In this document: positions 24,655 through 51,207 of the stretch, one piece after another
Layout: every line of letters starts with the position of its first letter
How positions within the stretch are numbered: the first letter of the stretch is position 1
From: Burkholderiales bacterium
Lineage (GTDB): Bacteria > Pseudomonadota > Gammaproteobacteria > Burkholderiales > Burkholderiaceae_C
Length of the DNA: 64,000 bases
Direction of reading: 5' to 3'
Assembly (NCBI GenBank): GCA_021414305.1
Contig: JAIOOS010000011.1
Location: 1-64,000, forward strand
Translations under genes and position numbers: made by a program
Notes under the pieces: model-generated
The model's database searches: none
Told to the model about the DNA's origin: nothing
What the model saw: only the letters and a program-made list of their open reading frames with translations

Positions 24655-25067
24655 ATCACGTCCCGTCAATCCTTCTCATCACAGCGGTTCTGGCATGCCA
24701 CGGCACTGCTTCGCGAGCCCAGACCGTTCCCGGCAACGAAGCGGTGCGAACCACTGGCACAGGCAAGTCCGTCGACCTGCCGCCGGTGCCGGCATCGGTC
24801 AGCAAGCCCTGCGCAGCGACGGCGGCCTGCCACGCTGGAGCCTGGCACATGGTCGAGACCTCCGATGGCCTGCGCGAGTGCACCGAGCCATATGCACGAC
24901 CGACGACTTGCCGTGTCTCCTCCTATGGGACACAGAAGCTACCGCGCCTCTGGATCGTAAAGACGCAGGCACGCTGGCGCTGGTGCCAGTACCCGGACCT
25001 AGGCAGCAAGTGCGTTGACATCTTTGCCAAGCCGCCGGCCAACCTTCCTTACGACGCCATTCAGTAA
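24651..25067 (+). CDS. T4SS-operon secreted hypothetical (139 aa)
   Basis: Signal peptide (ITAVLACHGTASRA), Cys-rich; between virB4 and virB6. Confidence 0.65.
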   Translation: MNHVPSILLITAVLACHGTASRAQTVPGNEAVRTTGTGKSVDLPPVPASVSKPCAATAACHAGAWHMVETSDGLRECTEPYARPTTCRVSSYGTQKLPRLWIVKTQARWRWCQYPDLGSKCVDIFAKPPANLPYDAIQ

Positions 25068-25079
25068 GCGGAGGCTAAT

Positions 25080-26189: not shown

Positions 26190-26205
26190 TACCGCAAGGA
26201 GTTCC

Positions 26206-26904: not shown

Positions 26905-26911
26905 GGCAACT

Positions 26912-27667
26912 ATGGGCTCGATGCTGCAGGACCGGCTGCGCGCCGACCCGGCCGCGGTCCCCGACAAGGAAGTCTTCTTGGCGGTCAATCGCGCCTGGGA
27001 GCTCGACCGGGCCACCTTGCTGGAACGGTCGGAACGCCGCGCATGGATCGTCGGCGGCACGGGCGTCGTGACAGCCATCCTGGCGGTGATGGCGGTCTTC
27101 GCGCAGGGGCCGTTGCGCCAGGTCGTGGGCCTGCCCATCGTCGTCGACCGGGTCACCGGCGAGACCACGATCCAGCAGCGCCTCAACGTCGAATCCGTCC
27201 CGGTGATAGATGCGCTCGACAAGCACAACCTCGCCGTCTTTGTCCGCGCGAGGGAAGGCTACGGCTGGTGGTTCCTGCAACGCGACTTCGACCAGGTAGC
27301 GCGGATGGCAGTGCCGACGGTGTTCGCCGACTACAACCGGCAGTTCGAAGGCGAAGCTGCGCTGCAGAAGAAGCTCGCGGGCACCGAAGAGTGGCGGATC
27401 CAGATCGTCGGTGTTCGCCTGTCGGCCTCGGGGCGACGCGGCAACGCCGGCACGGCCACCGTCACCTACGACAAGGTCGTCCGCCTCGTCGAGAAGAACC
27501 TGCCGGACACGACCTCGCGCCACGTCGCCAGCGTTGTCTACGAGTACCAGCCCAAGGTGCTCGCCAAGGAGAAAGACCGGATCGAGAACCCGTTTGGATT
27601 CGTCGTCACCGCGTACCGATCCGACCCCGAGATCGCGGCGGCACCGGCGCCGGCGGCGACCAGGTAG
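26912..27667 (+). CDS. virB8: VirB8
   Basis: Single N-terminal TM; YGWWFLQRDFDQVARM and VVYEYQPKVLAKEKDRIENPFGFVVTAYRSDPE typical of VirB8. Confidence 0.9.
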   Translation: MGSMLQDRLRADPAAVPDKEVFLAVNRAWELDRATLLERSERRAWIVGGTGVVTAILAVMAVFAQGPLRQVVGLPIVVDRVTGETTIQQRLNVESVPVIDALDKHNLAVFVRAREGYGWWFLQRDFDQVARMAVPTVFADYNRQFEGEAALQKKLAGTEEWRIQIVGVRLSASGRRGNAGTATVTYDKVVRLVEKNLPDTTSRHVASVVYEYQPKVLAKEKDRIENPFGFVVTAYRSDPEIAAAPAPAATR

Positions 27668-27677
27668 CGAGGCTGCC

Positions 27678-28571
27678 ATGCACCTGATCCGAATCCTCGC
27701 TGCCGGATTGCTCACCTTCGCGATTGGCGGCGCGCTCGCGGCCGACACCTCCGATCCGCGCTTGCGTCAAGTCTGGTACGACCCGCAGGCCGTAGTCACC
27801 GTGCCGGTGAAGCGGGGCATCGTCACCGACATCGTCCTCGACGCCGACGAGGTCATCACCGACCTCGCCTCGGGCCTGGGCGGCGATTGCACCAAGGCCG
27901 AGGCGACCTGGTGCATCGCCGCGCAGCCAGGGGGCCGCCATATCTTCGTCAAGCCGAAGAGCACGGCAGGTACGGCGAACAACCTGGCTGTGGTTACCGA
28001 CAAGCGCAGCCACTCCTTCCGGCTCGAACTGCTGGCTGAGAACGACGCGCGCCCGCCGGTCTATCGGCTGTTGGTCCGGGCAGTACCGCCGCTACCGCCG
28101 CCGGCACTAGTCGCCGCGCCTCACCGTTTCGCCCCTGAAGCCGAGATCGCCGAACCAGCCGCACCACGCCAATCCGACGTGATCGCGGAAAGGCTCCGGA
28201 CCGCGCCGGTGCCCGTGAACTCCGACTATTCGCTCGCCGAAGGCACGGGCTCCGAGGACATCGTTCCGTCACTCGTCTTCGACGATGGCCGCTTCACCTA
28301 TCTGCGGTTTGCGAACAACCGGGAGGTGCCGGCGGTCTTCCACGTGCAGGGGGACGGCTCGGAGGCGCTGGTCAACGTGCGCATGGAGGGTGACCTGCTG
28401 ATCGTCGACCGGGTCAGTCGCCGGCTGATGCTGCGCGCCGGCAACGCCGTCGTGGGTCTCTGGAATGAGTCGTTCGACCCCGACGGAGTTCCGCCCGCAG
28501 GCGGCACCACCGTGCCGGGTGTCGAGCGGACGATCGTCGGACGAGGCGCATCGGCAAGGGGGCGGCCATGA
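27678..28571 (+). CDS. virB9: VirB9
   Basis: DPRLRQVWYDPQAVVTVPVKRGIVTDIVLDADEVI; PSLVFDDGRFTYLRFANNREVPAVF C-terminal VirB9 motif. Confidence 0.93.
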   Translation: MHLIRILAAGLLTFAIGGALAADTSDPRLRQVWYDPQAVVTVPVKRGIVTDIVLDADEVITDLASGLGGDCTKAEATWCIAAQPGGRHIFVKPKSTAGTANNLAVVTDKRSHSFRLELLAENDARPPVYRLLVRAVPPLPPPALVAAPHRFAPEAEIAEPAAPRQSDVIAERLRTAPVPVNSDYSLAEGTGSEDIVPSLVFDDGRFTYLRFANNREVPAVFHVQGDGSEALVNVRMEGDLLIVDRVSRRLMLRAGNAVVGLWNESFDPDGVPPAGGTTVPGVERTIVGRGASARGRP

Positions 28572-29929
28572 GCAACGATGTTCGCCCGGACAAGGACATG
28601 CCGGACGCCGCGAAGGCATCGGGCGACAGCGCGACCGGGTTGGAAAGCGAAGCCGGCATTCCGAGCGTCAGCCAGCCAAGGACCGTGACCGTGTCCCGCA
28701 AGGGTCTGTTCGCCCTCGCCTTTTTCGCCGTCTCGCTCGTCGCCGTCTCCGCTGTCTCGATCCATCGCGCCTTCGGCTCCAAGAACGAGATCCAGGAGGC
28801 GTCGAAGCGCGTGGCCGACCGTCCCGCTGCGGCAGGCACAGAGCCGCGACGCCTCGACCTCACCCTCCCGGTGGCCGCTTCGGCGGCAAGTGCACCCGCC
28901 GGCCGGATGATCCCGGCGATCCAACCCCTGCCCGACGACGGCCCTGCGCAACCAATCCCGGTTCGCCGCAACGAAACACCCCGGACCTTGCCCGAGGATG
29001 CACCCGCCGTACTGCTCTCCAGCCGGCCCGGCATCACTGGCGCAAACAGACAGGCGACCGCGGTCGCTGCAACCGGCGGCGAGGGCGCCGACAAAGGCGA
29101 TCCCCTGGACAACACCCGGCGGAACCTGGACGCCTATCAGCAACGCCTGCAGGGACTGCTCGACACGTTGACCGCGCGAACCGACGCTGTCACCAAGTCC
29201 GCCAACGGCACTCCCTCGCTGCCCCTTCCTCTGCTTCCATTACCCACTGGCGCTGGAGGCACGGCTCCGGCCGGCGCCGGCCTCTTCGGTGGTCAGCTGC
29301 AAGGCTCTGCGACCCCTCGGGTCGTTGCCGGCAGCATTGCCAACCGCAGCCTGACTCTGCCGAAAGGCACCGCCTTCACCTGCGCCCTGAAGACGCGCCT
29401 CGTCAACGCCGCGTCTGGCTTCGTCAGCTGCCAGGTCCTGCGCAATGTCTTCAGCGAGGACGGGCGGGTGCTCCTGATCGAGCGCGGCTCGCACCTCGAC
29501 GGTGAGTACCGGACCTCCTCCGCGCGACCCGGGACGGTCCGGATCCCTGTCCTCTGGACCCGCCTGCGCACACCAAATGCGGTGACTGTCGACATTGAGT
29601 CCCCCGGAACCGGCGCCTTGGGCGAGTCGGGTATCGACGGCTACGTCGACAACCGATGGTTCGAACGGATCGGAGCGGCCATGCTGCTCTCCGTCATCAA
29701 CGACGCGATGGCGTTCGCGATCCAGAAGCAGACCAGCAGCGGCGATGGCGACACCATCCTGTTGCCCGCGACGACGGGCAACACCAGCAAGCTCGCCGAG
29801 AAGGTGCTCGACAGCACGATCAACATCCCGCCCCTGATCTACCAGAACCAGGGCGCGGTCGTCGGCATCTACGTCGCCCGGGACGTCGACTTCTCGTCGG
29901 TTTACGAGCTGAAGGCGGTCGAGCGGTGA
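28568..29929 (+). CDS. virB10: VirB10
   Basis: TLPKGTAFTCALKTRLVNAASGFVSCQVLRNVFSEDGRVLLIERGSHLDGEY and YVDNRWFERIGAAML. Confidence 0.95.
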   Translation: MSNDVRPDKDMPDAAKASGDSATGLESEAGIPSVSQPRTVTVSRKGLFALAFFAVSLVAVSAVSIHRAFGSKNEIQEASKRVADRPAAAGTEPRRLDLTLPVAASAASAPAGRMIPAIQPLPDDGPAQPIPVRRNETPRTLPEDAPAVLLSSRPGITGANRQATAVAATGGEGADKGDPLDNTRRNLDAYQQRLQGLLDTLTARTDAVTKSANGTPSLPLPLLPLPTGAGGTAPAGAGLFGGQLQGSATPRVVAGSIANRSLTLPKGTAFTCALKTRLVNAASGFVSCQVLRNVFSEDGRVLLIERGSHLDGEYRTSSARPGTVRIPVLWTRLRTPNAVTVDIESPGTGALGESGIDGYVDNRWFERIGAAMLLSVINDAMAFAIQKQTSSGDGDTILLPATTGNTSKLAEKVLDSTINIPPLIYQNQGAVVGIYVARDVDFSSVYELKAVER

Positions 29930-31026
29930 GCATCTCGATCGCCCCAGCCGAATTGCGGAGCCCGCCGGCCTGCGCCGGGTGGTGCGGCGAGTCCACGTCG
30001 GTGGTCGAGTTCCTGCGCCCTCTCCGCGCCCGCCTGGACGAGCCCGGAGTGCTCGAGGTTTGCGTCAACCGTCCGGGCGAGATGATGGTCGAGACGGTGC
30101 GCGGCTGGAGCGTCGTCAAATCGGACGAACTGTCGCAGGAACGCTGCTTGTCGCTCGCCACCGCCCTGGCGACGCTCTCGGACCAGCAGATCAACCAGGA
30201 ACGGCCGCTGCTCGCGGCGACCCTGCCGACTGGGGAGCGCGTGCAGTTCGCCATCCCGCCGGCGGTCGCGAGGGGAACGGTCTCGATCACGATCCGCAAG
30301 CCCTCCGAACTGATCCGCGGCCTGGACGACTTCGAGAAGGAGGGCCTGTTCGATCGCACCGCCATCGTCAGCCGTACTCCCGATGCGGGACTCCTGCCCT
30401 TCGAGCACGAGCTCGCCGACCTGAAGCAGCGCGGCCGCTACGCCGAGTTCCTGCGCCTGGCCGTCCGCAAGCACCAGACCATCGTCGTCAGCGGCAAGAC
30501 CGGCTCGGGCAAGACCACGTTCATGAAAGGTCTCGTCGAGGAGGTGCCCAGGCACGAGCGCCTGATCACGATCGAGGACACGGCCGAGCTCACCCTCCCC
30601 AACCACCCGAACGTCGTCCACCTCTTCTACAGCAAGGACGCGCAGGGAACCGCCAAGGTCACCGCCAAGTCGCTGCTCGAGGCGTGCCTGCGGATGAAAC
30701 CCGACAGAATCTTCCTTGCGGAGATCCGCGGCGACGAGTGCTTCCACTTCGTCCGCCTGGCCGCATCGGGCCACCCGGGCAGCATCACCAGCGTCCACGC
30801 CGGCAGTTGTGCCCTCGCCTTCGAGCAGATGGCGCTCATGATCCGCGAGAGCGGCGCGGGCGGGGGGCTCCGCATGGATGAGATCAAGTGGCTGCTCGGC
30901 GTCGTCGTCGATGTCGTCGTCCAGTTCGACCGCGACGAGCGCGGTCGCTTCGTCTCCGAGATCTTTTACGAGCCACGGCGCCAGCGTCTCGCCCGCTGGG
31001 ACGACGCCGTGCCGGCAAAGCCATGA
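29926..31026 (+). CDS. virB11: VirB11 ATPase
   Basis: IVVSGKTGSGKTTFMKGL Walker A; LACLRMKPDRIFLAEIRGDE; GHPGSITSVHAG. GTG start. Confidence 0.96.
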   Translation: MSISIAPAELRSPPACAGWCGESTSVVEFLRPLRARLDEPGVLEVCVNRPGEMMVETVRGWSVVKSDELSQERCLSLATALATLSDQQINQERPLLAATLPTGERVQFAIPPAVARGTVSITIRKPSELIRGLDDFEKEGLFDRTAIVSRTPDAGLLPFEHELADLKQRGRYAEFLRLAVRKHQTIVVSGKTGSGKTTFMKGLVEEVPRHERLITIEDTAELTLPNHPNVVHLFYSKDAQGTAKVTAKSLLEACLRMKPDRIFLAEIRGDECFHFVRLAASGHPGSITSVHAGSCALAFEQMALMIRESGAGGGLRMDEIKWLLGVVVDVVVQFDRDERGRFVSEIFYEPRRQRLARWDDAVPAKP

Positions 31027-33041
31027 GCAGCGTCACCGCCCTGCCGTTCTCGAGCTGGCCTGTGGGCCGGAAGGCCGCAGCAGCAACCTTCGGGTTCATG
31101 GCAATGGCCGCGCTGGCCTGTGCCGCGCTCTACCTGTCGGCAGTGCTGTTCCTACTTCTCAACAAGGCGAACCCAAGCCAGGCGCAGTTCGCCAGCATCG
31201 TCGCCTACTGGGAGCGCTACTCGGACGATCCGCAGCTGCGCAAGAAACTGCTCGGTGCGATCGTCGTCTCCGGCATCGGCCTGCTCGTCGTCTTGCCCGG
31301 CGCCCTGCTGGCTGCGTCACGGCAGAGCCGGCCGCTGCACGGCGACGCGCGATTTGCGAACCCGACCGAGGTCACACGCGCCGGCCTGCTCCAGGTCGAA
31401 CCCCAGTCTGCCAGCCCCCGCATCCTGATCGGCCGGTACCGGGGCCGCTTTCTGGCGCTTCCCGGACAGCTCTCGGTGATGCTCTCGGCACCGACCCGCA
31501 GCGGAAAAGGCGTCGGCGTCGTCATTCCAAACCTCCTCAACTGGCCGGACTCAGTGGTCGTGCTCGACATCAAGGGTGAGAACTACGACGTCACTGCCGG
31601 ATTCCGCGCCAGGCACCGGCAGGCGGTCTACGCGTTCTCACCTTTCGACGAAGGGGCACGCAGCCATCGCTGGAACCCGCTCTCCGCCGTGCGCACCGAC
31701 CAGCTGCACCGGGTCGGCGACCTGCTGTCGATCGGTCAGGTGCTCTTCCCGAACGACGGCGGTAGCACGTCGTCCGAGGCGTTCTTCAACGACCAGGCGC
31801 GCAACCTCTTCCTCGGCATGGGCCTCTACCTGCTCGAGACGCCTGACATGCCGCGCACGATCGGCGAGATGCTGCGCCAGTCGTCAGGCAAGGGCCAGTC
31901 CCTAAAGGAGCACTTGAACGCCGTGATCAGGCGCCGAAAGGAGGAAGGCAAGGCGCTCTCGGACGAATGCACCGACGCATTGCGGCGCCTGACTACGAAC
32001 TCGGAGAACACGCTCCTGAGCATCGTCTCGACCTTCAATGCGCCGTTGACCGTATTCGCCGATGCGATCGTCGATGCCGCCACCAGCGCCGATGATTTCC
32101 GGCTCGGCGATGTCCGGCGTCGGCGCATATCCATCTATGTGCGGATCCCACCGAACCGCCTAGCCAACGCCCGACCGTTGCTGAACCTGTTCTTCTCGCA
32201 GCTCGTCAGTCTGAACACGCAGCATCGACCCGACCAGGACCCGACTCTCAAGCTACAGTGCCTGCTCGTCCACGACGAGTTCGCCGCTATGGGGCGGGTT
32301 GGCGTGGTCTCGTCGGCCGCTGCCTTCCTCGCCGGCTACAACTTGCGGCTTCTCACGGTCGTGCAGGCGATGGCGCAGCTCGACTCGGTCTACGGTGAGA
32401 AGGAGGCCCGCACCTTCGCGACCAACCACGGCCTGCAGATCCTGTTCGCCCCACGCGAGCAACGCGACGCCGAGGAATACAGCGCGATGCTCGGACACTT
32501 CACCGAGCGCGCCACCTCGCGCGGCAGGAGCCGCTCTTTCAGCAGCCACGGCCACACGACGGTCAGCCGAAACGATAGCGAGCAGCGCCGGGCTCTCCTC
32601 CTGCCCCAGGAGTTCAAGGAGATTGGCGCGGAACGGTTCGTCGCCATCGTCGAGAACTGCAAGCCGATCCTCGGCGAAAAGATCCGTTACCACCGCGACA
32701 AGATCTTCCAGGCTCGCCTGCGCCCTCCTCCAGTCGTGCCGCGGATGGACATGGACGCCCATTTCGCCCGAATCGAGCTGCGCTGGCGCTACCTGCCGGA
32801 CGAGCTCAAGCCTGGCGAAACGCTGGTTGTCGAGCAGCTCGCGCACGACGTGTCCGGCCTCCCGGAACTGACCGAAAAGTCCACCGAGGCCGAAGCCGGC
32901 GACTTCGCCGACTGCTACTTCGCGATCACCCGAGTCAGCTCCCCGGACGCGGGCGGGGCGATCGAGCCAGCAGACGTTCCGCCGGAGAGTCCTGCCGAGC
33001 TCGACGAACTCGACGTCGACAGGCTTGCGGAGCAGACCTAG
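31023..33041 (+). CDS. virD4: VirD4 coupling protein
   Basis: SAPTRSGKGVGVVIPNLL Walker A; LLVHDEFAAMGRVGVV Walker B; TraG/VirD4 architecture. Confidence 0.96.
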   Translation: MSSVTALPFSSWPVGRKAAAATFGFMAMAALACAALYLSAVLFLLLNKANPSQAQFASIVAYWERYSDDPQLRKKLLGAIVVSGIGLLVVLPGALLAASRQSRPLHGDARFANPTEVTRAGLLQVEPQSASPRILIGRYRGRFLALPGQLSVMLSAPTRSGKGVGVVIPNLLNWPDSVVVLDIKGENYDVTAGFRARHRQAVYAFSPFDEGARSHRWNPLSAVRTDQLHRVGDLLSIGQVLFPNDGGSTSSEAFFNDQARNLFLGMGLYLLETPDMPRTIGEMLRQSSGKGQSLKEHLNAVIRRRKEEGKALSDECTDALRRLTTNSENTLLSIVSTFNAPLTVFADAIVDAATSADDFRLGDVRRRRISIYVRIPPNRLANARPLLNLFFSQLVSLNTQHRPDQDPTLKLQCLLVHDEFAAMGRVGVVSSAAAFLAGYNLRLLTVVQAMAQLDSVYGEKEARTFATNHGLQILFAPREQRDAEEYSAMLGHFTERATSRGRSRSFSSHGHTTVSRNDSEQRRALLLPQEFKEIGAERFVAIVENCKPILGEKIRYHRDKIFQARLRPPPVVPRMDMDAHFARIELRWRYLPDELKPGETLVVEQLAHDVSGLPELTEKSTEAEAGDFADCYFAITRVSSPDAGGAIEPADVPPESPAELDELDVDRLAEQT

Positions 33042-37885: not shown

Positions 37886-40528
37886 ATGCAGGTGAATCGA
37901 GAGACTGTCGTGCTTCAGGGTCCATTGGCCTTGCGCATGCAGCGACTCGACGCCGCGGGCGAAGGCACGGCGGGCCGACAGTTCACAACGCTGCCTCTTC
38001 TCGCCGCCCGCTTGGCAGGAGGCTTTTTACGCCCCGCGCATTCTGAGGATCTGGAATTGGCGCTGCAGGCAGCGTTGCAAGCAGGCGCGTTCCATGAGAT
38101 TGAACCCTTGACAGGACTGCCGGGGATGGGGCGAGCCGCCGCTCGGACGCTAAGAAGGATCTGGGATGCCGACTTGGACCCGCAAGCGTTCGACACACCC
38201 CGGCTGAAGGATCTGGCCCTTCTGGATCGCCGGGTGCGAGAGTGCTTGCCGGCGGATGTCATGCTTCCTCGAGAGTTGCGCGATCACGCGATACGTCGCA
38301 TTCACCACGCGCCCCGCGTCATTGGAAAGCTCGTACTCGACCGCCTCCTCTCGGTCCCACGAATCTGGCAGCCACTGATTCGATCCCTGAGCGACTGCAT
38401 CCCTGTGGAATGGATCGAGCCCGCCACAACGGACACCGCATGGTTCCCAGGACAGATTTCGTCGCCGCCGGCGCGCGCGTCAGTTTCGCCTCAGCTCGTC
38501 TCATGCGCCGGTCCTCGCTCTGAAGTCATCGAGTCCTTGCGTTGGGCACGTCAGCTACTCGCCTCTGGTCGCGCTCATCCTCAAGAGGTCGCCATTTGCG
38601 CGGCTAGAACGGACGAGTGGGACAACCACGTACTCACACTTGCACGAGGCGCTGGCCTACCGCTGCACCTTTCCAACGGTGTCCCAGCTCTTTCCACGCG
38701 CGCCGGACAGGCCTGCGCGTCATTAGCCGATGTTCTCCTGAACGGCCTGAGCCAGGACCGAGTGCAGCGCCTGTTCGGTCACGCGATTGGCAACAGTCGG
38801 CTCCTGAATGACTTGACACGTAACTGGACAGTCGGCATCAACCCGGAAGCGGGGTTGTTCCACCTCGAGCATTGGCGGCGTGCGCTCGCCAATGCCGAAT
38901 CGCGTCGCCCCACAGACGCACAGGTGTCTCTTGTTGAAACTGCGCTCGAACTCCTGGCACAAGGGATCTCCGTCGCATCCGAGGCGGGTGACGCATTCTT
39001 GGGAGCGAACGGACGACTCCTATGGGAACGTGCACTCAAGAGCGCTCCGGCCGCGGCACTAGAGATCTCGCTGCAGTCACTACGAATGAGCGATGAGTCC
39101 GAAGCCGCGGCATCGATCGTCTGGTGTCCCGCGTCGCATCTCGTAGGAGCGCCTCGCCCCTTCGTATGGCTGATGGGTCTCACAAGCGGTAGGTGGCCGT
39201 CTCGGCCGAACGAAGATCCGCTACTACCCGAACATGTTCTCGCGAGGGACCTTATAGATCCGGACCCAATCGGAAACCAGGAACGCCGGGCGTTCGATTC
39301 GATTCGGCGGCAAGCCCAAGGAGGCTGCATCATCTCGCGCAGCCGCCGCAGCGCGCATGGGGGATTGCTGCCGGTTAGTCCGCTGTTGGCCTCGCTGGGT
39401 CCCGCGAAGACGCTTAAGCGAGGGCGCATCCCGACGCACGCCTTCAGCGAGACAGACCGGCTCCTCGCACGCCCGCAAGATGCCGGTACGGTACCTCAGA
39501 TCCGCTCTGCTATGAGTTGCTGGTCCGATTGGTCTGCGGCGAAGGTTACGGAGCATGACGGGTGTGTGCGGGCCCAGCATCCCGTCATCGTCAGCGCACT
39601 CGGCCGTCAACAGTCAGCGACGTCCTTGAGCCGCCTTTTGCGCCATCCGCTGACATTTGTGTGGCGATATGCCCTTGGATGGAGGAGTCCAGCCCTCGTC
39701 GAGGAGCCCCTGTCCCTCGATGCGCGTGCTTGGGGCGAGCTCGTGCACGAGCTTCTTCGAAAGGCAGTGGACAAACTGGAGCCGGACCCTGGCTATACCC
39801 GCGCGAACGAGACGAGCCTGCGCGACGCCTTGTCCGCCGCCGCGCACCAAATAGGCGACCAGTGGCCGCTTGAGCGCTCTATACCACCTCTCCTGCTATG
39901 GCAATACACGTTGGCTCGCGCTGAAGCAGTTGCCTTCAGAGCCTTGACGCTTGATGCCGGGTTCAGCCCCGGTACACGGTCCTGGACAGAAGTGCCGTTC
40001 GGAGGCGTTGAGGTTCCCGTCGCGAGCTGGCCATGGGACACAACAGCGCCGGTTACCGTTCCTGGCACAGCGGTACTCATGCGCGGGTCCATTGATCGTC
40101 TGGACCTAAACGCACCGGCAACTTCCGTTCGCGTTACCGACTACAAGACCAGCGCAGAGCCACCACGCGCCGAGCAGATCGTGGTGAGCGGTGGAGCGTC
40201 TCTCCAACGGGTAATTTATGCCATCGCCGCCAAACAGCTGTTGCCAGACGCGCGTCGCGTGATTGCGCGCCTCTTCTACTTGGAGGAAGAACTACCCCGG
40301 GCGCGCGAACTGCTGGATGTGGACAAGGCGATTGAACAGGTAAGTGGCTACGTTCAGCAAGCCTGGGTGCTGCTCCAAGAAGGTACAACGCTGCCCAGTT
40401 TGGTGCCCGAACAGTACGAGGACTATCGATTGGCAATGCCGGCGGATGCTGAGAAGTACCGACGGACGAAGCGAGCATCTTTTCGCCGTGCCTTTGGAGC
40501 CTTCGCGCGCGTCTGGGAGGCGCCATGA
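37886..40528 (+). CDS. AddB-like protein with C-terminal PD-(D/E)XK nuclease domain
   Basis: GELVHELLRKAVD...RGSIDRLDLNAPATSVRVTDYKTSAEPP (RecB-family nuclease); 4-bp overlap with AddA-like helicase. Confidence 0.85.
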   Translation: MQVNRETVVLQGPLALRMQRLDAAGEGTAGRQFTTLPLLAARLAGGFLRPAHSEDLELALQAALQAGAFHEIEPLTGLPGMGRAAARTLRRIWDADLDPQAFDTPRLKDLALLDRRVRECLPADVMLPRELRDHAIRRIHHAPRVIGKLVLDRLLSVPRIWQPLIRSLSDCIPVEWIEPATTDTAWFPGQISSPPARASVSPQLVSCAGPRSEVIESLRWARQLLASGRAHPQEVAICAARTDEWDNHVLTLARGAGLPLHLSNGVPALSTRAGQACASLADVLLNGLSQDRVQRLFGHAIGNSRLLNDLTRNWTVGINPEAGLFHLEHWRRALANAESRRPTDAQVSLVETALELLAQGISVASEAGDAFLGANGRLLWERALKSAPAAALEISLQSLRMSDESEAAASIVWCPASHLVGAPRPFVWLMGLTSGRWPSRPNEDPLLPEHVLARDLIDPDPIGNQERRAFDSIRRQAQGGCIISRSRRSAHGGLLPVSPLLASLGPAKTLKRGRIPTHAFSETDRLLARPQDAGTVPQIRSAMSCWSDWSAAKVTEHDGCVRAQHPVIVSALGRQQSATSLSRLLRHPLTFVWRYALGWRSPALVEEPLSLDARAWGELVHELLRKAVDKLEPDPGYTRANETSLRDALSAAAHQIGDQWPLERSIPPLLLWQYTLARAEAVAFRALTLDAGFSPGTRSWTEVPFGGVEVPVASWPWDTTAPVTVPGTAVLMRGSIDRLDLNAPATSVRVTDYKTSAEPPRAEQIVVSGGASLQRVIYAIAAKQLLPDARRVIARLFYLEEELPRARELLDVDKAIEQVSGYVQQAWVLLQEGTTLPSLVPEQYEDYRLAMPADAEKYRRTKRASFRRAFGAFARVWEAP

Positions 40529-43500
40529 CCGGCGTTTCAGATCAAGCGGCGAGGCTCCGCGCACTAACGGATCTCGAGGCCACGCTGCTGGTTGAGGCCG
40601 CCGCGGGAACGGGCAAGACAGCCTTGATTGCCGGGCGGTTGACGATGCTGTTGGCCAGCGGGTCGGCTCCTTCATCACTGGCTGCGATAACGTTCACGGA
40701 AGCGGCCGCGAGCGAACTCTCAGATCGTGTCCACCGCTATGTGGACACCTTGCTCGAAGGCGGCTTGCCAACTCCGATCAAGGCGGCGCTTCCGAGCGGC
40801 CTGACGGCGCAACAACTCGCTCAGCTTTCTCAAGCACGCGGGAGGCTCGAGGAGCTCACAGCTACGACGATTCATGGCTTCTGTCAGAAACTCATTCAAA
40901 GCTACGCAGTGGAGGCCGACGTTGATCCGGGGGCACAGGTGCTCGACGAGACTCACGCGAAGATCGCCTTCGACAGAGTGTTCGATCAATGGCTTCGTCG
41001 GCGGCTAACAACAACCGCCGGGAGCGACGATCCGATCGCGTTGCTTTCCAAAGAGGATCCTACGCGCGTTGTCTCCACCCTGAGGCGTCTCGCAACATTC
41101 CGGCGCGATCATCGTAGCGCGCGCGCGATTGCACCGGACCTGAGCGGCCGGCCTGATGTGGAGCTCGTCGCGGCCGTAGACGCGTTCAGAGCCTGGCATA
41201 CGTGCGTTGACGCGGAGCCGAGGACGGCCGCCCTACTCGGCGACTTCGAAGTCCTCGCAAGCTTTTATCAGGATACGTTCAAGACCACGCCAACGTTCGC
41301 ATCGTTGTGGGCATTGGGGCATCCACCGCGAGTCCCGAGCATGCGCGACGAGTCCTACGACTTCAGGCTGCCGCAACTCAAGGGAGCTTGGCGGCAGGTG
41401 GCCGGAGAGGCCGAAGGTGATCGGCTGCACGATGAAGCTCTTTCCCACATCACACGCGTGCACGCCTGCTTCCGTGCGTTGCTAGGAAAGGTTGCCACTG
41501 CGCTCGTCTGGACGCTGTCCAGTGAGCTAGATGAGGTACTCGAGGCGTACTCGCAATTCAAACGTAGCGCTGCAGTGCTCGATTTCGACGACCTGCTCTA
41601 TGGAGCTCGTGATCTCGTGAAGGGACACGAGAATGTTCGGATTGCTCTGTCCCAGCGCTTTTCACGGATCCTAGTGGACGAGTTCCAGGACACCGATCCC
41701 ATTCAGGCAGAGATTCTCTTCCGCATCGCCGCTGTCGACTTCGCAGATAGGTGGGAGGACAGCACGCTCAGAAGCGGAGCTCTGTTCATGGTCGCCGATC
41801 CGAAGCAGGCCATCTACCGCTTCCGGGGGGCCGACATCGAGTGCTACGAACGGGCGCGGCGTGCGGTCCGGAATCAGCATGCAGAAGGCGTGCTACGTGT
41901 GACAAGTAGCTTTCGGTCGTTGCCCGAGATCTTGGCGCATGTCAATCGCTGCTTCGAAACGCAACTGTCAGCCCCGGGGCAGCCGGGCTACGTGCCCCTC
42001 ACCTCGACGCGTCGAGAGGCGCCGCGCGCCCTGCCATGTGTTGCAAAGAGGACCATCAAACTACCCCCTTCACCCAGAGTCAACGACGTCCGAGATGCCG
42101 AAGCTCGCGAGGTTGCCGAAATTTGCGCGCGACTGATCGGAAATATGGAGGTCGTCTTGGATGACGGGGCTCGACGCCCTCTTCTGCCAGCGGATATCGC
42201 ACTGCTTGCGCCTGCTGGCACGCAGTTGCAACGCTACGAGCATGCCCTGGACGAGATAGGGCTTCCGTATGCATCCCAGGCCGGCAAGAGTCTGTTCGAG
42301 CGGCAGGAGATCCAGGACCTCGTCTCCCTGGCCCGTTCGCTTGCAGACCCATTTGATACGCTGGCTCTCGGTGCACTATTGCGCGGTCCGCTGATCGGAC
42401 TCACGGAAGAGGAGTTGTTGGACATCACAGCGGCGTTGCCCGCCAATGCCGACAGGCCAAGCCTTGCGCCGCGGCTCAGTCTCTTCACGGATCCGGAAAG
42501 CGTCTCACACCCGCTCGCAAAGGAAGCTCTCATCGCGCTGCGCGCTCTCTGGCGGCGGTCCGCTACCACTACCCCGATGCTTCTTCTGAGTGACGCCATT
42601 GAGCGTCTCCGCGTGCGTGCCTTGCTTGCCGTTCGCGAGGGCGAGCGAAGCAGCAGGGCTTTAGCTAACGTCGATGTCTTTCTCGAAACGGCCAGAGCCT
42701 ATGACGTACGTGGCCTCCAACAATTCGTGCGCGATGTGAGCCGCGATTGGGCACAGCGGGAAGCGCGCGCCGAAGGCCGCGTAGAGTCTACCGGCGATGC
42801 GATCGAAATCGTCACCATCCACAGCTCGAAGGGTCTCGAATGGCCCGTAGTCATTCTGATCAACACGGTCACGCAATTTCCGTCCCGGGTTCAGTTTGTC
42901 CATCGACCGTCAGATGACACCCTTCATTGGGTACTCGGCGACGCCGTACCTCCCGACCTAAGCGCTGCACTCGAGAAGGATGAGGAAAGCTCGGCAAGAG
43001 AGCGCGAGCGACTCTTTTATGTAGCATTCACGAGGGCTCGCGACCTTCTCGTACTTCCGAAGCTCCCCAGCGGTAGTGCCAAGTCGTGGAACACGATCAT
43101 GCAGGATCCCTTTCAGGGCCTCTCAGAACTCGACGTCTCAGCCCTGCCCGTTAAGGGCCTCCCCGAAACGCGTACAGGCTCAAACGAACAAACGGCGGAA
43201 CTATTCGCTGAGCAGCAGCGCTCGATTGCCGCGGGTATACGGAACATCAGCTGGCTTCGGCCTAGCCAGGACGACTTGGATCGCGTGCCCACCTCCGAAC
43301 TTCTCATCTCCGAGCACGACCCGATTGAAGCCCAGGTTGCGACCGGGGGCGGACGTATGCGCGGTCTGATACTGCACAAGCTCATTGAGGAGGTGTTGAC
43401 GAGAGAGCTTGCGGATGACCTGCAAGCCTTGGGTAGTAGAGCGGGCGAGCTGATATCTCAATTTGGGACGAATGTGGCGCAAGTGTCCATGCCTGATCCG

Positions 43501-43824
43501 GACGAGTTGGCCAACACGGTTGCGAGGACGCTCGCCCTGCCGGAGATCGTCCAGTTGCGACCGGGCTTGCTAGCAGAAATCGCGGTGTACTCGACCCTGG
43601 GCGGTGCTGAACCGGTCTCACTCAGCGGCCGAGCCGACGCGCTCTACGTTGAGGATGGCCAGCCAAAGGTCGTGGTCGACTGGAAGAGTGATGTCAGGCC
43701 CAAGGCTGCGGACATTGAGCTGCATGCCGCACAGCTTCGCGTTTACATGCGTGCGACTCTCGCGGAGCGCGGCGCGCTTGTGTACATATCCACCGGTCAG
43801 GTGCATTGGCTGGCACGGGAGTGA
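40525..43824 (+). CDS. AddA-like UvrD/Rep helicase-nuclease
   Basis: LVEAAAGTGKTALIAGRL Walker A; ILVDEFQDTDPIQAEI; SSKGLEWPVVILINT; C-terminal SGRADALYVEDGQPKVVVDWKSD nuclease motif. Confidence 0.93.
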   Translation: MTGVSDQAARLRALTDLEATLLVEAAAGTGKTALIAGRLTMLLASGSAPSSLAAITFTEAAASELSDRVHRYVDTLLEGGLPTPIKAALPSGLTAQQLAQLSQARGRLEELTATTIHGFCQKLIQSYAVEADVDPGAQVLDETHAKIAFDRVFDQWLRRRLTTTAGSDDPIALLSKEDPTRVVSTLRRLATFRRDHRSARAIAPDLSGRPDVELVAAVDAFRAWHTCVDAEPRTAALLGDFEVLASFYQDTFKTTPTFASLWALGHPPRVPSMRDESYDFRLPQLKGAWRQVAGEAEGDRLHDEALSHITRVHACFRALLGKVATALVWTLSSELDEVLEAYSQFKRSAAVLDFDDLLYGARDLVKGHENVRIALSQRFSRILVDEFQDTDPIQAEILFRIAAVDFADRWEDSTLRSGALFMVADPKQAIYRFRGADIECYERARRAVRNQHAEGVLRVTSSFRSLPEILAHVNRCFETQLSAPGQPGYVPLTSTRREAPRALPCVAKRTIKLPPSPRVNDVRDAEAREVAEICARLIGNMEVVLDDGARRPLLPADIALLAPAGTQLQRYEHALDEIGLPYASQAGKSLFERQEIQDLVSLARSLADPFDTLALGALLRGPLIGLTEEELLDITAALPANADRPSLAPRLSLFTDPESVSHPLAKEALIALRALWRRSATTTPMLLLSDAIERLRVRALLAVREGERSSRALANVDVFLETARAYDVRGLQQFVRDVSRDWAQREARAEGRVESTGDAIEIVTIHSSKGLEWPVVILINTVTQFPSRVQFVHRPSDDTLHWVLGDAVPPDLSAALEKDEESSARERERLFYVAFTRARDLLVLPKLPSGSAKSWNTIMQDPFQGLSELDVSALPVKGLPETRTGSNEQTAELFAEQQRSIAAGIRNISWLRPSQDDLDRVPTSELLISEHDPIEAQVATGGGRMRGLILHKLIEEVLTRELADDLQALGSRAGELISQFGTNVAQVSMPDPDELANTVARTLALPEIVQLRPGLLAEIAVYSTLGGAEPVSLSGRADALYVEDGQPKVVVDWKSDVRPKAADIELHAAQLRVYMRATLAERGALVYISTGQVHWLARE

Positions 43825-43840
43825 CGGAGAGGACGGCCTG

Positions 43841-44644
43841 ATGGAATACTTTAAGCGGCCAATCCCCAAGGGTTACCAGATCTATTCGACATTCGAGGTC
43901 GCCGGTCTACACGTTGGGGACCGCCGCGCTAGGCTGGACCAGTTCGTTTCAGGCCAGAACATCGATGTCTGCTTGGAGCCAGAACCAACGAACATGCATG
44001 ATATGAACGCTGTACTCGTTGTTGGGCTCTATGACAAGAAGGGTCTGATGCAGTCACTTCTCGGACGGGGCGAAAGGGGCCGCGTCGTGCTGGGCTACGT
44101 TCCTGCCCGCGAGGCAGAGGCATTGCAGGTCACGGGCGCGCTTCCATTTATCGTCCCTCGTCTTAGCTCCGCCTCGACCGCGAACGACTCATGGGCGTCG
44201 CTTACGGTCGATGCGCTAGGTCCAAGAGGAACGCCTCTAAGCAAGCAGTACTTTGACCATGTAAAACGCCAGCAAGCTAGCGCCCCGGCAAGTCAACGTG
44301 ACCTCACATTCCTCAGGCTCTGTGGGGCTCCGGTGAAGAAGGGACTCACCACCGGGGACGCCAGCATGCAAGTCGAAGAGCTCCGCGCAAAGCTGTCGGA
44401 GCACGAGCCAAGCAAGCTTGCCGAGCTGGATGCATTGACGGGGGTGGTGGAATCATTGTTTGACGAATTCTCCGACGCCGAAAACGCGGATATGTACGAG
44501 CTGCGGAAAGCGCCCCCAGCTGTTGTTGTAGCTGCGGCCGTGAACCTTTCGGGGCGCGGCATGTCGGCAGCACAAATCGAAGACGACTTCGACCTGGTCG
44601 CGGAAGAGATCCGGAAACTGCGCCCATCGCTCAGCAAATCCTGA
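43841..44644 (+). CDS. HIRAN-domain protein
   Basis: STFEVAGLHVGDRRARLDQFVSGQNIDVCLEPEPTNMHDMNAVLVV...GRVVLGYVPAREAEAL matches HIRAN pattern. Confidence 0.75.
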   Translation: MEYFKRPIPKGYQIYSTFEVAGLHVGDRRARLDQFVSGQNIDVCLEPEPTNMHDMNAVLVVGLYDKKGLMQSLLGRGERGRVVLGYVPAREAEALQVTGALPFIVPRLSSASTANDSWASLTVDALGPRGTPLSKQYFDHVKRQQASAPASQRDLTFLRLCGAPVKKGLTTGDASMQVEELRAKLSEHEPSKLAELDALTGVVESLFDEFSDAENADMYELRKAPPAVVVAAAVNLSGRGMSAAQIEDDFDLVAEEIRKLRPSLSKS

Positions 44645-45026: not shown

Positions 45027-45941
45027 CTATGCGCTCGGGAGTCGGTAGCCAGGCGCCAATAGCGCGTTGCTGGCCCCATACATGGCCAACGAATCCCGCA
45101 GCCAAAGCATGTACTCGGGACCCTTCAGGCTGTGGTCTGGCGAACAGTCGACATTCCAGCGCCTCAGCATGTAACCAGCATTGGCGGCGCGAATCTTAAT
45201 TCGGAGCACACCCTCAGGCATATCGTAGTCAAGCAGAGCGACGTCGGGCCGTTTGTGCGAAGGATGTGGCACTAACTCGAGCTCGAGGATGCGGCTCCAC
45301 TGGACGTCGTGTTCAGAAGTCTCGGCCGGCAGGACGACGCTCGACTCCATCACAACCGGTTCGCTCATGCGTGTGAAAACGAAGTCGCGGAACTCGCCGC
45401 TCTTGCGGTCAAAGGCACGGACGTGCCACCGAATACCTGTGTCGACTAGGGCAAGCGGGACCAATTCGCGCTCGCTGTGCCCGCTGGTTATCGAGTAGTA
45501 CTTCAGGCGCACGACCTTGCCGCGGTGTATGGCACGCGTGATCGGTGCTACCACCGACATCGACGGAATACTGAGAGCGACGGGGGCTTCGCATCGAACC
45601 ATTGGATCGAGGGAGGCCTCAAACCCGTCCCCGAACCCCTGGGATAGGGCCGTCAGGACACGTTGTGGGGCGTGGTCGAACAGAGGCTCGAAAGCGCCGC
45701 TCGGCCGGTAGACCTTGGTGCCTTGGTCATAGTCCAGATTCCCCGGCGCAATCTCCTTGTACATCGCAATGTCGCGGGTGGCTGCTGCGGGGCCTGTGGC
45801 AAAGCGTTCCACCACGTCTGCTCTTCGCAGCTCGCCGAGGAAATAGAGCCGGAAGTCGATGTGCGAGAGGCGCTCGAGCTGGGTTCGTGGAAGGTTGGCC
45901 AGGATGTCCAGTCGAGGTCCCGCCGCGGTCGTCCCTTGCAT
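45027..45941 (-). CDS. WYL-domain transcriptional regulator (BrxR/CapW-like)
   Basis: N-terminal wHTH, central SMSVVAPITRAIHRGKVVRLKYYSITSGHSERELVPLALVDTGIRWHVRAFDRKSGEFRDFVFTRM (WYL); divergent from CBASS-2. Confidence 0.85.
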   Translation of the reverse strand: MQGTTAAGPRLDILANLPRTQLERLSHIDFRLYFLGELRRADVVERFATGPAAATRDIAMYKEIAPGNLDYDQGTKVYRPSGAFEPLFDHAPQRVLTALSQGFGDGFEASLDPMVRCEAPVALSIPSMSVVAPITRAIHRGKVVRLKYYSITSGHSERELVPLALVDTGIRWHVRAFDRKSGEFRDFVFTRMSEPVVMESSVVLPAETSEHDVQWSRILELELVPHPSHKRPDVALLDYDMPEGVLRIKIRAANAGYMLRRWNVDCSPDHSLKGPEYMLWLRDSLAMYGASNALLAPGYRLPSA

Positions 45942-46596: not shown

Positions 46597-47853
46597 ATGC
46601 ATCGCGATCTTCCTGTCTTTCCGTTGCCGCGGCGCTTCTCGGCAGGTTCATCTGCCCGGCTCTTGTATTTGGCCGAGTTGATCGGCCGCGCCTACGAGCC
46701 CACCGCGACGCAGCTTGCCGATCTCGACCGTGCATACCAAAGTACGGCTGACTTCCTGGTCACCTGCCCCGAGTTCGACGGGATGTTGTATCGGGTGCAC
46801 GCGCACGGATCGCGCCAGCTCGGCACCATGGTGCGGCCGCTCGACATCTGTCGCGATGGCGTTGACATTGACCTGGCCGCCTGCCTGACTCGGGAAGGCC
46901 TGCAGCGATACGGCGGCCCCGGTGGACCGGCGCTGTTGATCGAGCACCTGTGCGTGTGCCTGAAGCGCTACACGGATCGCCACGGCTTGAAGATCGGCCG
47001 CGACGCCCGATGCGTGACCATCACCTATGCCGGAGGGATGACGGCGGACTTCGCGCCGATCATCGATGATCCATCGCATGTCGTGCTTCACGGTGAAACG
47101 CACGGCCGGATTCCGGACCGCGAGCTCCAGCGTTACCTGTCGACCAATCCGCGCGGGTACTGCGCGGTTTTCGACCGAATCGCTCTCATCGCGCCAGCCT
47201 TCCAGCGAAGCGAGGAACTGAAGGCGACGTACGACTCTCTGCGCAAATCAGAGGTCTTGCCGCTTCCCGAAGCCGACGATGTATTCGGTCGCCTTCTCGC
47301 TCGCCTTGTTCAGCTCGCCAAGATCAATCGCAATATCACCTTTGGCGCGCCCGGCGTCGACGATGATCTAGCGCCGCCCTCCAGCTTCTTGACTTCGCTC
47401 ATCGCTGCCGCCTACGAAATCGAGGCGCAGAAGCGTCACGACGGGCCGATGGATCTTCTGCTCGATGTCATTCGCGTGATGGTCACGCTCATCCAGCGCT
47501 TTCAGATGCCTGACGGTAGCGAGCACTGGTTCCTCCCCAACCCGACAGCGCAGAACGGCAACCTCGCTGAATGCATGAACGACCGGGCCAGGCAGCAAGC
47601 CTTCGACGCCTGGCATGAACGACTACTCGAGGACCTGACAGCGATCGTCGACGCCATCGACGTGGGGTCAGGGACAGATGTGCTCGCGAGGGCCGTCGAG
47701 CGAGCGTTCGGCGAGCGTGGACGCATTGCCGTGCTGGAGGACAACGGCTCGCGTCGCGAGGCAAACAGATCCCTGGGCCGGGCCGTCTTCGTGGTAGGCG
47801 GTGTGACTCCGGTATCTACGGCAACCCGGGCACACACCCATTTCGGGGACTGA
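46597..47853 (+). CDS. CBASS-2 CD-NTase-1
   Basis: HAHGSRQLGTMVRPLDICRDGVDIDLAACL (GS + DxD), TADFAPII third acidic strand. Confidence 0.88.
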   Translation: MHRDLPVFPLPRRFSAGSSARLLYLAELIGRAYEPTATQLADLDRAYQSTADFLVTCPEFDGMLYRVHAHGSRQLGTMVRPLDICRDGVDIDLAACLTREGLQRYGGPGGPALLIEHLCVCLKRYTDRHGLKIGRDARCVTITYAGGMTADFAPIIDDPSHVVLHGETHGRIPDRELQRYLSTNPRGYCAVFDRIALIAPAFQRSEELKATYDSLRKSEVLPLPEADDVFGRLLARLVQLAKINRNITFGAPGVDDDLAPPSSFLTSLIAAAYEIEAQKRHDGPMDLLLDVIRVMVTLIQRFQMPDGSEHWFLPNPTAQNGNLAECMNDRARQQAFDAWHERLLEDLTAIVDAIDVGSGTDVLARAVERAFGERGRIAVLEDNGSRREANRSLGRAVFVVGGVTPVSTATRAHTHFGD

Positions 47854-48333
47854 ATGCGTCACCTTCCGCCTATCCGTGTTGCCACCCTCGCCGAGCGCGC
47901 CTTCGAGTTGCGTGCGCTGCGGCTACCCGGGGCGGAGGTTCGACTTGTCCGACGCGGGGAACTGCGTTTCGACTTCTCTCTAGCTCCCACTGCCTTTGCC
48001 CGCCTCTATCGCTGCAGGCTGCTCATGACACCTCGACGGGTGCCTGCGATGTTTGTCGTTCGACCGAATCTGCAAGAGTTGGCCAACGGTCGGGCACTTC
48101 CCCACGTCTACAAGCACGACGGACCGGAGACGAAGCTGTGTCTCTGGCTCCCGCGCAAGAACGAGTGGACCCCGCAGATGCGGTTGCTCGAGACCTATAT
48201 CTCGTGGACGAGCGAGTGGCTGAACTATTTCGAGGAGTGGCTGCTGACGAACGAGTGGGCCGGTGGAGGAGAGCATCCTGTACCGAGGCAAAAGAGGTGG
48301 GCGGCTGATAGGCGCCGAGAGGTTCCGCAATGA
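47854..48333 (+). CDS. CBASS-2 standalone E2-like protein
   Basis: KHDGPETKLCLWLPRKNEWTPQMRLLETYISWTSEWLNYFEEWLLTNEWAGGGEHP: E2-like region with candidate catalytic Cys; start immediately after CD-NTase-1. Confidence 0.8.
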   Translation: MRHLPPIRVATLAERAFELRALRLPGAEVRLVRRGELRFDFSLAPTAFARLYRCRLLMTPRRVPAMFVVRPNLQELANGRALPHVYKHDGPETKLCLWLPRKNEWTPQMRLLETYISWTSEWLNYFEEWLLTNEWAGGGEHPVPRQKRWAADRRREVPQ

Positions 48334-49232
48334 ATGGCATCACAACACGGCAGCTGCTCGGGCCGATGCTTGACCTTGTTCGCGCACGCCGCCTCGTCTT
48401 CCGCCGCGCCAAGCGATGCCAGGCGGCTCTCGTCACGGTCACCTTGCTGCTGCCCATTGCCGCCGCCTTGTCGTCAGCGCTGTTGCCGCCGGCTCGTCCG
48501 GCGGTGGCGCTCTTCGCGGTTCTTCTTGGCATCTTTGAGGTAACAAGCATTGACCGCTGGATGAAGGCGCGGTTGAAGGAAGGTGCCAAGCTCCAAGAGG
48601 AGTTCGATTGCCAAGTGCTCGACATCAGCTGGAACGAGTTTGTTGTCGGCGCGCGAGTCGACGCCGAAGACGTTTTCGAGAATGCCCGCGAAAACCTCAG
48701 CGCTAGCGACGAGCAGCGGCTTCGCGACTGGTATCCGACGGTCGTTGCCGACGCTCCGATCGAAGTTGCCCGCCTGATTTGCCAGCGCGAGAACCTCGTC
48801 TACGACAGCGAGTTGCGGATCGCCTACGGCCGCGTCCTTTTCTGGTCAATCGTCTGCTTCATCGGCGTTTCGGGAGCGGCTGGCCTCTATTTCAACTTCA
48901 CCTTCACGGCATTCGTGCTCGGCGCGCTCGTGCCCGCGGCACCAGCGCTGACGTGGGCTCTCCGTGAGCGAAAGCGACAGACCGACACCCTGGAAACCAT
49001 AGCGCGCCTAAAGACCGAGTCCGAGACCTTGCTTAGGTCCACCATGAAAGACCAGGACCCTGCCAAGGCGCGCGGGCGCGCGCGGGAGTTGCAGGACGCG
49101 ATCTACAACCATCGGCTGACGAGCTCTCTTGTCTTCGAGTGGCTCTACAGCCGTTTGCGACCGAGGCTTGAATCCAAGCTCAGTCACGGCGCGGCGTACT
49201 GGGTCGATGAGTACAGGCGGACTTCGGCGTGA
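48330..49232 (+). CDS. S-4TM family putative pore-forming effector
   Basis: AALVTVTLLLPIAAALSSALL, LQEEFDCQVLDISWNEF, two C-terminal hydrophobic helices; typical S-4TM layout. Confidence 0.85.
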   Translation: MNGITTRQLLGPMLDLVRARRLVFRRAKRCQAALVTVTLLLPIAAALSSALLPPARPAVALFAVLLGIFEVTSIDRWMKARLKEGAKLQEEFDCQVLDISWNEFVVGARVDAEDVFENARENLSASDEQRLRDWYPTVVADAPIEVARLICQRENLVYDSELRIAYGRVLFWSIVCFIGVSGAAGLYFNFTFTAFVLGALVPAAPALTWALRERKRQTDTLETIARLKTESETLLRSTMKDQDPAKARGRARELQDAIYNHRLTSSLVFEWLYSRLRPRLESKLSHGAAYWVDEYRRTSA

Positions 49233-50110
49233 GACAGGGCGCGTCTCCTCAACTGAATTTCATGCAGCTAGGCGCCCGCATTCAGCCGCACAGCGGCGAA
49301 CTGCTGGCTGCGCGGGGCCACCGGGGGTCCACGCGAACGCGACTCGCGAATTCGTTTTCGGTGAGTGGCATGCATCCCATTGGGAGCCACGCTCGAGGCA
49401 CCGCCATTCGCCGGCACAGCGACCTCGACAGCATGGTGATTCTGCGCAAACAGGAAGTGATGTGGGGCGGCAAGATGGTCTCATCCGACACCCTTCTTCG
49501 TCGAATCCTGGACGACCTTCGCGAGCGCTACCCGTCGTCAGGCGTCTTCAAAGATGGTCTCGCCGCGGCCATCGAGTTCGGCAGCACCAAGCAAAGCCTC
49601 GACGTCGTTCCGGCCATCTTCCAGCGCTTCAACAAAGGTAGGCCCGTTTATCTCATCCCGGACGGGATGGGCGACTGGTTCGAAACGAGCCCTCAGACCC
49701 ATGATCGCTACTTCGCCGAGGCACATGATCGGAGCGGTAAGAAGCTGGCCAAGGTTTCCCAGCTGTTGAGGTGGTGGAAACACGCCCGAAACCCATCGCT
49801 TCCAATACGCAGCTTCTACATCGACATGGTGCTCGCTGCCACGAGTCTTTGCGGACCTGCAAAGACCTACGCGAGCTGCCTCCGCGACTTCTTCTTCACC
49901 GTTTCCAGGGGTCGGTGCGGTGCCCTGCCCGACCCTTGTGGAATAGCTGGCGCAATCGAAGCGACAGACACAGACGTGCAGCGCGACCTGCTACGACGTG
50001 CTGTCGAGTACGCTCTTGGTCACGCCGACGCCGCGATCGCCGCGGAGGCGCGCCGCGACTTCGAAGAGGCGAACCGCCAATGGAACCTGGTCTTCAACGG
50101 CGAATTCTGA
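49229..50110 (+). CDS. CBASS-2 CD-NTase-2 (SMODS-type nucleotidyltransferase)
   Basis: HPIGSHARGTAIRRHSDLDSMVIL (GS + DxD), SLDVVPAIF third acidic strand; RSGKKLAKVSQLLRWWKHARNPSLPIRSFYIDMV. Confidence 0.85.
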   Translation: MRQGASPQLNFMQLGARIQPHSGELLAARGHRGSTRTRLANSFSVSGMHPIGSHARGTAIRRHSDLDSMVILRKQEVMWGGKMVSSDTLLRRILDDLRERYPSSGVFKDGLAAAIEFGSTKQSLDVVPAIFQRFNKGRPVYLIPDGMGDWFETSPQTHDRYFAEAHDRSGKKLAKVSQLLRWWKHARNPSLPIRSFYIDMVLAATSLCGPAKTYASCLRDFFFTVSRGRCGALPDPCGIAGAIEATDTDVQRDLLRRAVEYALGHADAAIAAEARRDFEEANRQWNLVFNGEF

Positions 50111-50226: not shown

Positions 50227-51207
50227 TCATTTTTGATGCTCGATGTCGCTCGCCGGTCCTTGCCTGACATGGGGATCGGGCACGACGTGCTCACGACCGA
50301 CAGGCATCTCGCGGTGGGTCCGCCCGGTGGCTACCTCTCGCGCGAATCGCCCAATGGCCGCCGCCAGGTTGCGATCCCTGGGATCCGTCGACACGACCAG
50401 CGCTCCGGCGATGTGGCGCCAGGATTCGGCCGCCTGAGCACGACTCTCCAGGGCGCCGAGGCCGGACTTGCGATCCGGGCGCGTCGTGAGTAACCGCCCG
50501 TCCTCCCTTGCCTTCAACCGCCACAACGGCTCGTAGTTGCGCGTGACACCGCGGCTCGCCTGACGCGTCGCCTCGGCATCGATTCCCCACTCGCGGAGTC
50601 TCTCGGCAAAGGTCTCCCGCCACCGCTGCAGGTCGGCCTTGCGGGGGTTGAGGCGCCTGCCGTGCATGGACTCGGCCCGCACGCTGAGGTGGACGTGCGG
50701 ATTGGCCTGGTGGTCGTGCAGCACCATGACGTACTTGTGGTCGGCGAGCTCGGCCTTCGCGAACTCCCGGGCGGCTCGCTGCACTGTCAGCGCGTCGACA
50801 CCTCTCGGCATGGACAGCATGATGTTGAACGCCTCGCGGCGGTCACTGACATCCTCGATCAGCGATCCACCGAGACGCCAGTCCTCCACCAGCTCACGAA
50901 CCGCATCCCTGCCCAGGCCGGGCTGGCCCCGCTCGTCCTCGATCTCGAGGCGCCCGTTCTTGCTGATGTACCGGAAGTGCGCGGCAATGGCCTTCATGCC
51001 TCGCCCCCCGCCGGTGACCTTGACCATGACCTGCGGTGCCCGGCGCACGACCGTCGCGGCGATGCGCTCGCGGATGAGCGCTGCCCTGCCCCACCCGAAT
51101 CCCGAAAGGCGCGGCTGAGGGGTCGGCTTGACCATCCGGTTGCTCGGATAGAAGAGCCGGTCGCCCCATTGGACCAGGACACCGTCGATGTCGCGCGGGT
51201 CAGGCAT
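50227..51207 (-). CDS. Relaxase (MOBP/VirD2-like)
   Basis: MKAIAAHFRYISKNG...MVLHDHQANPHVHLSVRAESMHGRRLNPRKADLQRWRETFAERLRE (HxDxxNPHVH motif III). Confidence 0.92.
   Translation of the reverse strand: MPDPRDIDGVLVQWGDRLFYPSNRMVKPTPQPRLSGFGWGRAALIRERIAATVVRRAPQVMVKVTGGGRGMKAIAAHFRYISKNGRLEIEDERGQPGLGRDAVRELVEDWRLGGSLIEDVSDRREAFNIMLSMPRGVDALTVQRAAREFAKAELADHKYVMVLHDHQANPHVHLSVRAESMHGRRLNPRKADLQRWRETFAERLREWGIDAEATRQASRGVTRNYEPLWRLKAREDGRLLTTRPDRKSGLGALESRAQAAESWRHIAGALVVSTDPRDRNLAAAIGRFAREVATGRTHREMPVGREHVVPDPHVRQGPASDIEHQK

Follow-up and report, generated by a model that had tools for sequence, protein, structure and literature searches.

A mobile AddAB-like helicase–nuclease gene pair with recurrent linkage to defence genes: a candidate portable module of bacterial immunity

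The stretch of Burkholderiales DNA analysed here, 64,000 nucleotides long and referred to below as the window, carries on its forward strand two overlapping genes for an AddAB-like helicase–nuclease, which we call AddBA. The first gene (37886..40528) encodes an AddB-like subunit of 880 aa, with a degenerate helicase-fold N-terminus and a C-terminal RecB-family PD-(D/E)XK nuclease (Pfam PDDEXK_1, 6e-21). The second (40525..43824) encodes an AddA-like subunit of 1099 aa, composed of an SF1A UvrD-type helicase (UvrD-helicase, 2e-49, and UvrD_C) and a C-terminal PD-(D/E)XK nuclease (PDDEXK_1, 4e-7). The end of the former is joined to the start of the latter by a 4-bp ATGA stop/start overlap, and both genes appear real, intact and translationally coupled, much as the original prediction had described them. 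The nuclease residues of the AddB-like subunit are H621, D737, D752-Y-K754 and Q774..Y778, among which H621, D737, D752, K754, Q774 and Y778 are conserved in 71–72 of 72 homologues. The AddA-like subunit contains the helicase motifs GTGKT (Walker A) and DEFQD, as well as the nuclease residues H951, D1038, D1052-W-K1054 and Q1070..Y1074; its helicase (Walker A/B, Q and R motifs) and nuclease residues are conserved in 40–41 of 41 homologues. Judged by these residues, both subunits retain a predicted active PD-(D/E)XK nuclease site, and the AddA-like subunit retains predicted active SF1A helicase motifs.

The pair was predicted to be cargo lying between a type IV secretion system (T4SS) and a relaxase, and this placement is correct. 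Pfam matches identify conjugative T4SS genes at 22135..33041 (forward strand), including VirB4/TrbE-like (starting at 22135), VirB6/TrbL (25080), VirB11-like (29656) and VirD4/TraG (30888) genes, and a MobA/VirD2-type relaxase on the reverse strand at 50227..51207 (PF03432, 1.5e-11). A PIN_12-domain protein (36147-37418, 46 bits) is encoded between a DUF1173 gene and the AddB-like gene; it was considered as a further member of the system and rejected, as no relative of it lies near any other AddBA pair. On the other side, a WYL-domain regulator of the CapW/BrxR-like type (45027..45941, reverse strand; Pfam WYL, 1e-12) sits between AddBA with its HIRAN-like neighbour, described below, and a CBASS operon on the forward strand (46597..50110). 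In this operon PADLOC recognizes a cyclase (46597-47853, Cyclase, 578 bits), an E2 protein (47854-48333, 170 bits), an S-4TM effector (48330-49232, 4TM effector, 362 bits) and a second cyclase (49229-50110, Cyclase, 176 bits). The operon thus has two cyclases, the second being an unrelated CD-NTase encoded directly after the S-4TM effector. Another CBASS system occupies 9294-15455 of the window, with E1-E2 (9294-10874), a DncV-like cyclase (10997-12133) and a phospholipase effector (11991-13196) on the reverse strand and a CapP-like protease (14688-15455) on the forward strand. An AbiEii toxin gene (61358-62155, forward strand) with an opposite-strand open reading frame alongside was also seen at 60644-62155. 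The region as a whole has no close DNA relatives on plasmids. AddBA has a G+C content of 61–62%, below that of the T4SS stretch (about 66%) and further below that of the surroundings of the host's chromosomal addAB genes (about 72%); the difference from the latter fits horizontal acquisition.

A third gene, co-directional with the pair, begins 16 bp past the AddA-like stop codon behind a ribosome-binding-like site (ggagagg). It occupies 43841..44644 on the forward strand and encodes 267 aa; the sequence favours the ATG at 43841 as its start over the GTG at 43604 that opens the longest reading frame. The original prediction took the product for a HIRAN protein and for the partner of the other two in a three-gene system. 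The position of the gene agrees with this; its domain assignment is weak. The protein shares a short motif (EPTNMHDMNA ... LGYVP) with the HIRAN family PF08797, which it matches at 20.4–21.6 bits, under the curated gathering cut-off of 24.7. A local profile made from 20 HIRAN domains of the host's class gave 15 bits, in two fragments, and a single-sequence structural model (pLDDT 40) was too poor for use. No HIRAN-like neighbour of AddBA was found in 86 other loci, either by tblastn with the window protein or with the HIRAN profile, a result to be read with the proviso that a very divergent HIRAN could escape such a search, given the weak match of the window protein itself. Searches with the whole protein detected no relative in the plasmids, phages, viral contigs, genome contigs and 150 family genomes covered. 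HIRAN domains as such occur in 35 of 369 genomes of the class, so that the family is not rare.

Could the HIRAN-like protein nevertheless sense unusual DNA ends and load AddBA on them, in a dedicated system of three genes? The co-directional layout with its own ribosome-binding-like site would suit such an arrangement, and the HIRAN domain of eukaryotic HLTF binds 3′ DNA ends. Set against the sub-threshold score, the lack of a HIRAN-like gene at the other loci and the lack of protein relatives in the collections searched, this proposal is very improbable, and HIRAN as a conserved third gene was rejected on these grounds. The gene appears to be peculiar to this one locus, a locus-specific accessory, and its product would be at most an optional local aid to end recognition. 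The original prediction had named a lack of conserved HIRAN linkage as an argument against itself; that argument holds for the three-gene system and leaves the two-gene AddBA untouched.

AddBA is mobile and is not the only AddAB of its host, as had been anticipated. The host's own AddA and AddB are encoded side by side on the chromosome (G000:C30), and AddA of this chromosomal type was found in 16 of 21 relatives searched. The window AddA-like protein shows up to 56% identity to its mobile relatives, as against 30% to the host's own AddA, and the latter figure holds for the best stretch only. The phylogenetic comparison with housekeeping AddAB that had been proposed places the mobile AddA-like proteins in one clade apart from housekeeping AddA with a support of 100; the tree (41 mobile and 8 housekeeping sequences) was made by a quick method and has long branches, and this split is more trustworthy than the placing of the window protein within the mobile clade. 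The AddA-like protein scores 267 bits against addA_alphas, with an equivalog cut-off of 861, and addB_alphas does not match the AddB-like protein; the host's own AddAB also falls under these cut-offs, and the equivalog test is therefore weak. The separate chromosomal pair and the separate clades led us to reject AddBA as the host's own AddAB.

AddBA resembles housekeeping AddAB, such as B. subtilis AddAB (3u4q), alphaproteobacterial AddAB and the host enzyme, in having two adjacent subunits, an AddB fold, an SF1A helicase in AddA and RecB-family nucleases in both subunits. It differs in clade, in its mobility and defence-island context and in the absence from the AddB-like subunit of four Fe-S-type cysteines. 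RecBCD and AdnAB belong to the same broad helicase–nuclease class, yet AddBA is without RecD and is closest in sequence to the AddA group. RecC lacks an active nuclease site, whereas that of the AddB-like subunit is predicted to be kept active.

The assignment of the smaller subunit comes from its fold. Its sequence profile matched none of the PDB chains searched, and a match was obtained by the fold search alone. An AlphaFold model built on a 44-sequence alignment (pLDDT 87.7) had as its best Foldseek match in the PDB B. subtilis AddB (3u4q_B, E 5.6e-26), followed by AdnA and then RecC, and this model points to an AddB fold. The host's chromosomal AddB carries four cysteines, C654 and C886-x2-C889-x5-C895, with a spacing that we take to be that of the Fe-S staple of B. 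subtilis AddB. The AddB-like protein of the window has none of these four and no cysteine after residue 560; its region of the first one reads LLRHPLTF versus LRGCPYRF in the host AddB, and the only cysteine conserved among the AddB-like homologues is C545. The mobile protein thus seems to be without the Fe-S staple, one of the defining features of AddB.

Relatives of AddBA are present on 61 plasmid records, 40 of them conjugative, and in at least 187 confirmed genome loci, 80 of which are among the matches listed. The loci are mostly alphaproteobacterial, above all on plasmids and chromosomes of Hyphomicrobiales, and large conjugative rhizobial plasmids commonly carry the pair. Apart from the host, no AddB-like relative was found in 398 genomes of its order or 368 of its class (E 1e-30). 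That AddBA is phage-borne was considered and rejected, as searches of 50,697 phage records and of viral contigs gave no match. The AddA-like gene follows the AddB-like gene wherever the contig extends far enough, save for a few cut or broken copies, and an ATGA/GTGA stop overlap ends 75 of 85 AddB genes; from these arrangements AddBA is best described as a conserved two-gene module. In four loci (L023, L024, L026 and L029) an identical order of genes over about 22 kb, with SIR2-HerA-AddB-AddA, is shared by two records named Afipia, one named Bradyrhizobium and a Sphingorhabdus MAG, with AddB at least 95% identical, which suggests either recent transfer or a binning error.

Such a distribution raises the question of whether AddBA simply serves the elements that carry it, as a spare enzyme of double-strand-break repair or recombination that helps large plasmids and conjugative elements to withstand transfer and the nucleases of the host, its nearness to defence genes being incidental. 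The chemistry of AddAB is repair chemistry, the pair is frequent on the rhizobial plasmids just mentioned, and 46 of 86 AddBA loci have no labelled defence system within 10 kb. However, the host already possesses AddAB, the partner of AddBA differs between loci, and the tight coupling to Shango, SIR2-HerA, Azaca, Gabija and JetD-like genes described below would be unexpected of a backbone maintenance gene. We consider a maintenance role unlikely, although it is the most credible of the alternatives to defence.

Of 86 AddBA loci, 40 have a labelled defence gene within 10 kb (29 of 70 once the loci are dereplicated by clustering AddB at 95% identity), and of 12 chromosomal AddAB loci none has one; since the defence reference set was drawn from these same AddBA loci and the 12 controls are taxonomically different from them, the contrast between 40/86 and 0/12 shows a direction and not a size. 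The number of independent events is also far below 40, as the associations with divergent Gabija and with Azaca/HMA/BREX are each largely confined to a single branch. With this bias of the reference set in mind, the gene maps argue for a recurrent linkage of AddBA to defence genes, and the survey of conserved linkage that had been suggested succeeded for these genes and failed for HIRAN.

A stronger argument than the count is that the partners are of distinct types and tightly coupled. Shango (sngABC) lies directly upstream of AddBA in L079, L091 and L006, and in the last of these only 2 bp separate SngC from the pair. Overlaps of 4 bp with AddB occur in L023 (a SIR2-HerA pair) and in L020 (a JetD-like gene). 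Azaca (zacABC) starts just after AddA in L080 and L084, with ZacA directly downstream; a ResIII helicase gene separates AddA from zacABC in L067 and L083. HMA or BREX operons are found in this Azaca/ResIII group, divergent across a WYL gene, and the WYL gene of the window falls into one blastp cluster with those beside AddB in Azaca/HMA/BREX-type loci. An AbiGi-like gene (L027) and a weak reverse-transcriptase match (L042) adjoin AddBA elsewhere. At various loci Shango, Azaca, SIR2-HerA, HMA and BREX thus share an operon with AddBA or directly adjoin it; to our knowledge, none of them is defined as containing AddAB-like proteins, and AddBA is an add-on to these systems. PADLOC does not include the AddB-like family and so does not list it as a defence component, a point against the defence reading; we found no account of the AddBA family, or of Shango, Azaca or SIR2-HerA linkage to AddAB, in the literature searched. 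Seven loci (L025, L036, L072, L076, L086, L096 and L098) carry near AddBA the gene of another large UvrD helicase, of about 1130 aa. In L086 this protein has an IrrE-like (M78) peptidase domain at its N-terminus and a PD-(D/E)XK domain at its C-terminus; it is possibly the product of a further uncatalogued defence gene.

Gabija deserves separate consideration, being a common neighbour of AddBA and, like it, a two-gene module of a nuclease and a UvrD-type helicase. The two differ in that GajA is an OLD/TOPRIM protein, which AddBA lacks; no GajA was found among the window proteins scanned, and the PADLOC GajB matches on the AddA-like protein span the shared UvrD core only. Gabija genes stand beside AddBA in 11 loci and in more than one orientation, with gajAB directly upstream and co-directional in L055 and divergent in the L007 group. 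We know of no RecBCD dependence of Shango, Azaca or SIR2-HerA. Work on P. aeruginosa (PMC12407980) shows that self DNA is kept safe from Gabija by the activity of RecBCD, and that Gabija targeting is licensed by phage proteins which exclude RecBCD; on this evidence AddBA might plausibly either attack or guard. As a guard, AddBA would stay active while phages block the host RecBCD or AddAB, so that partners which, as shown for Gabija, attack DNA ends devoid of RecBCD-type activity would spare self DNA, and its function would be protection and not attack. The recurrent Gabija neighbours in differing orientations speak for such a function, but most AddBA loci are without Gabija, the other partners offer no known parallel, and the invariance or near-invariance of the nuclease residues in both subunits suggests that DNA degradation matters. 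A guarding role therefore seems rather improbable.

On balance we favour, by a modest margin of belief, the view that AddBA is a mobile AddAB-like helicase–nuclease that processes DNA ends as a portable defence module against phages or plasmids. The pair probably represents a plug-in part of bacterial immunity that is not yet catalogued. The support for the defence reading is all drawn from gene context, and passive gathering of defence genes by mobile elements could explain much of the linkage. The original idea of a candidate defence system survives in the form of two genes carried as mobile cargo in defence islands across many genomes, and has lost HIRAN as its defining partner. A more specific and more tentative proposal is that AddBA, having lost the housekeeping Fe-S staple, may be an interchangeable end-resection effector added on to at least five unrelated systems. 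Those meant are Shango, Azaca, SIR2-HerA, Gabija and the JetD-containing locus, for which AddBA might conceivably act as a general module to ‘finish the DNA off’.

As a defence module, the AddBA heterodimer would load on the free or broken ends of double-stranded DNA. Such ends might be produced by the partner systems through nicks, cuts or stalled replication, or be offered by phage or conjugating DNA as it enters the cell; the enzyme would then unwind the DNA and degrade both strands. The loss of the Fe-S staple, together with the divergence from host AddAB, would presumably alter its regulation, and may also let it escape phage inhibitors of the host enzyme. In the element of the window, one may speculate that single-stranded DNA from resection could feed the adjoining WYL/CBASS layer.

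Host RecBCD and AddAB serve both as a barrier to phages and as a signal monitored by defence systems, Gabija and OLD among them. If the defence reading is true, bacterial cells would also acquire spare machines for end processing as parts of their immunity, by way of a mobile clade of AddAB paralogues. The AddBA clade would then make it possible to test directly whether Shango, Azaca and SIR2-HerA all end in resection.
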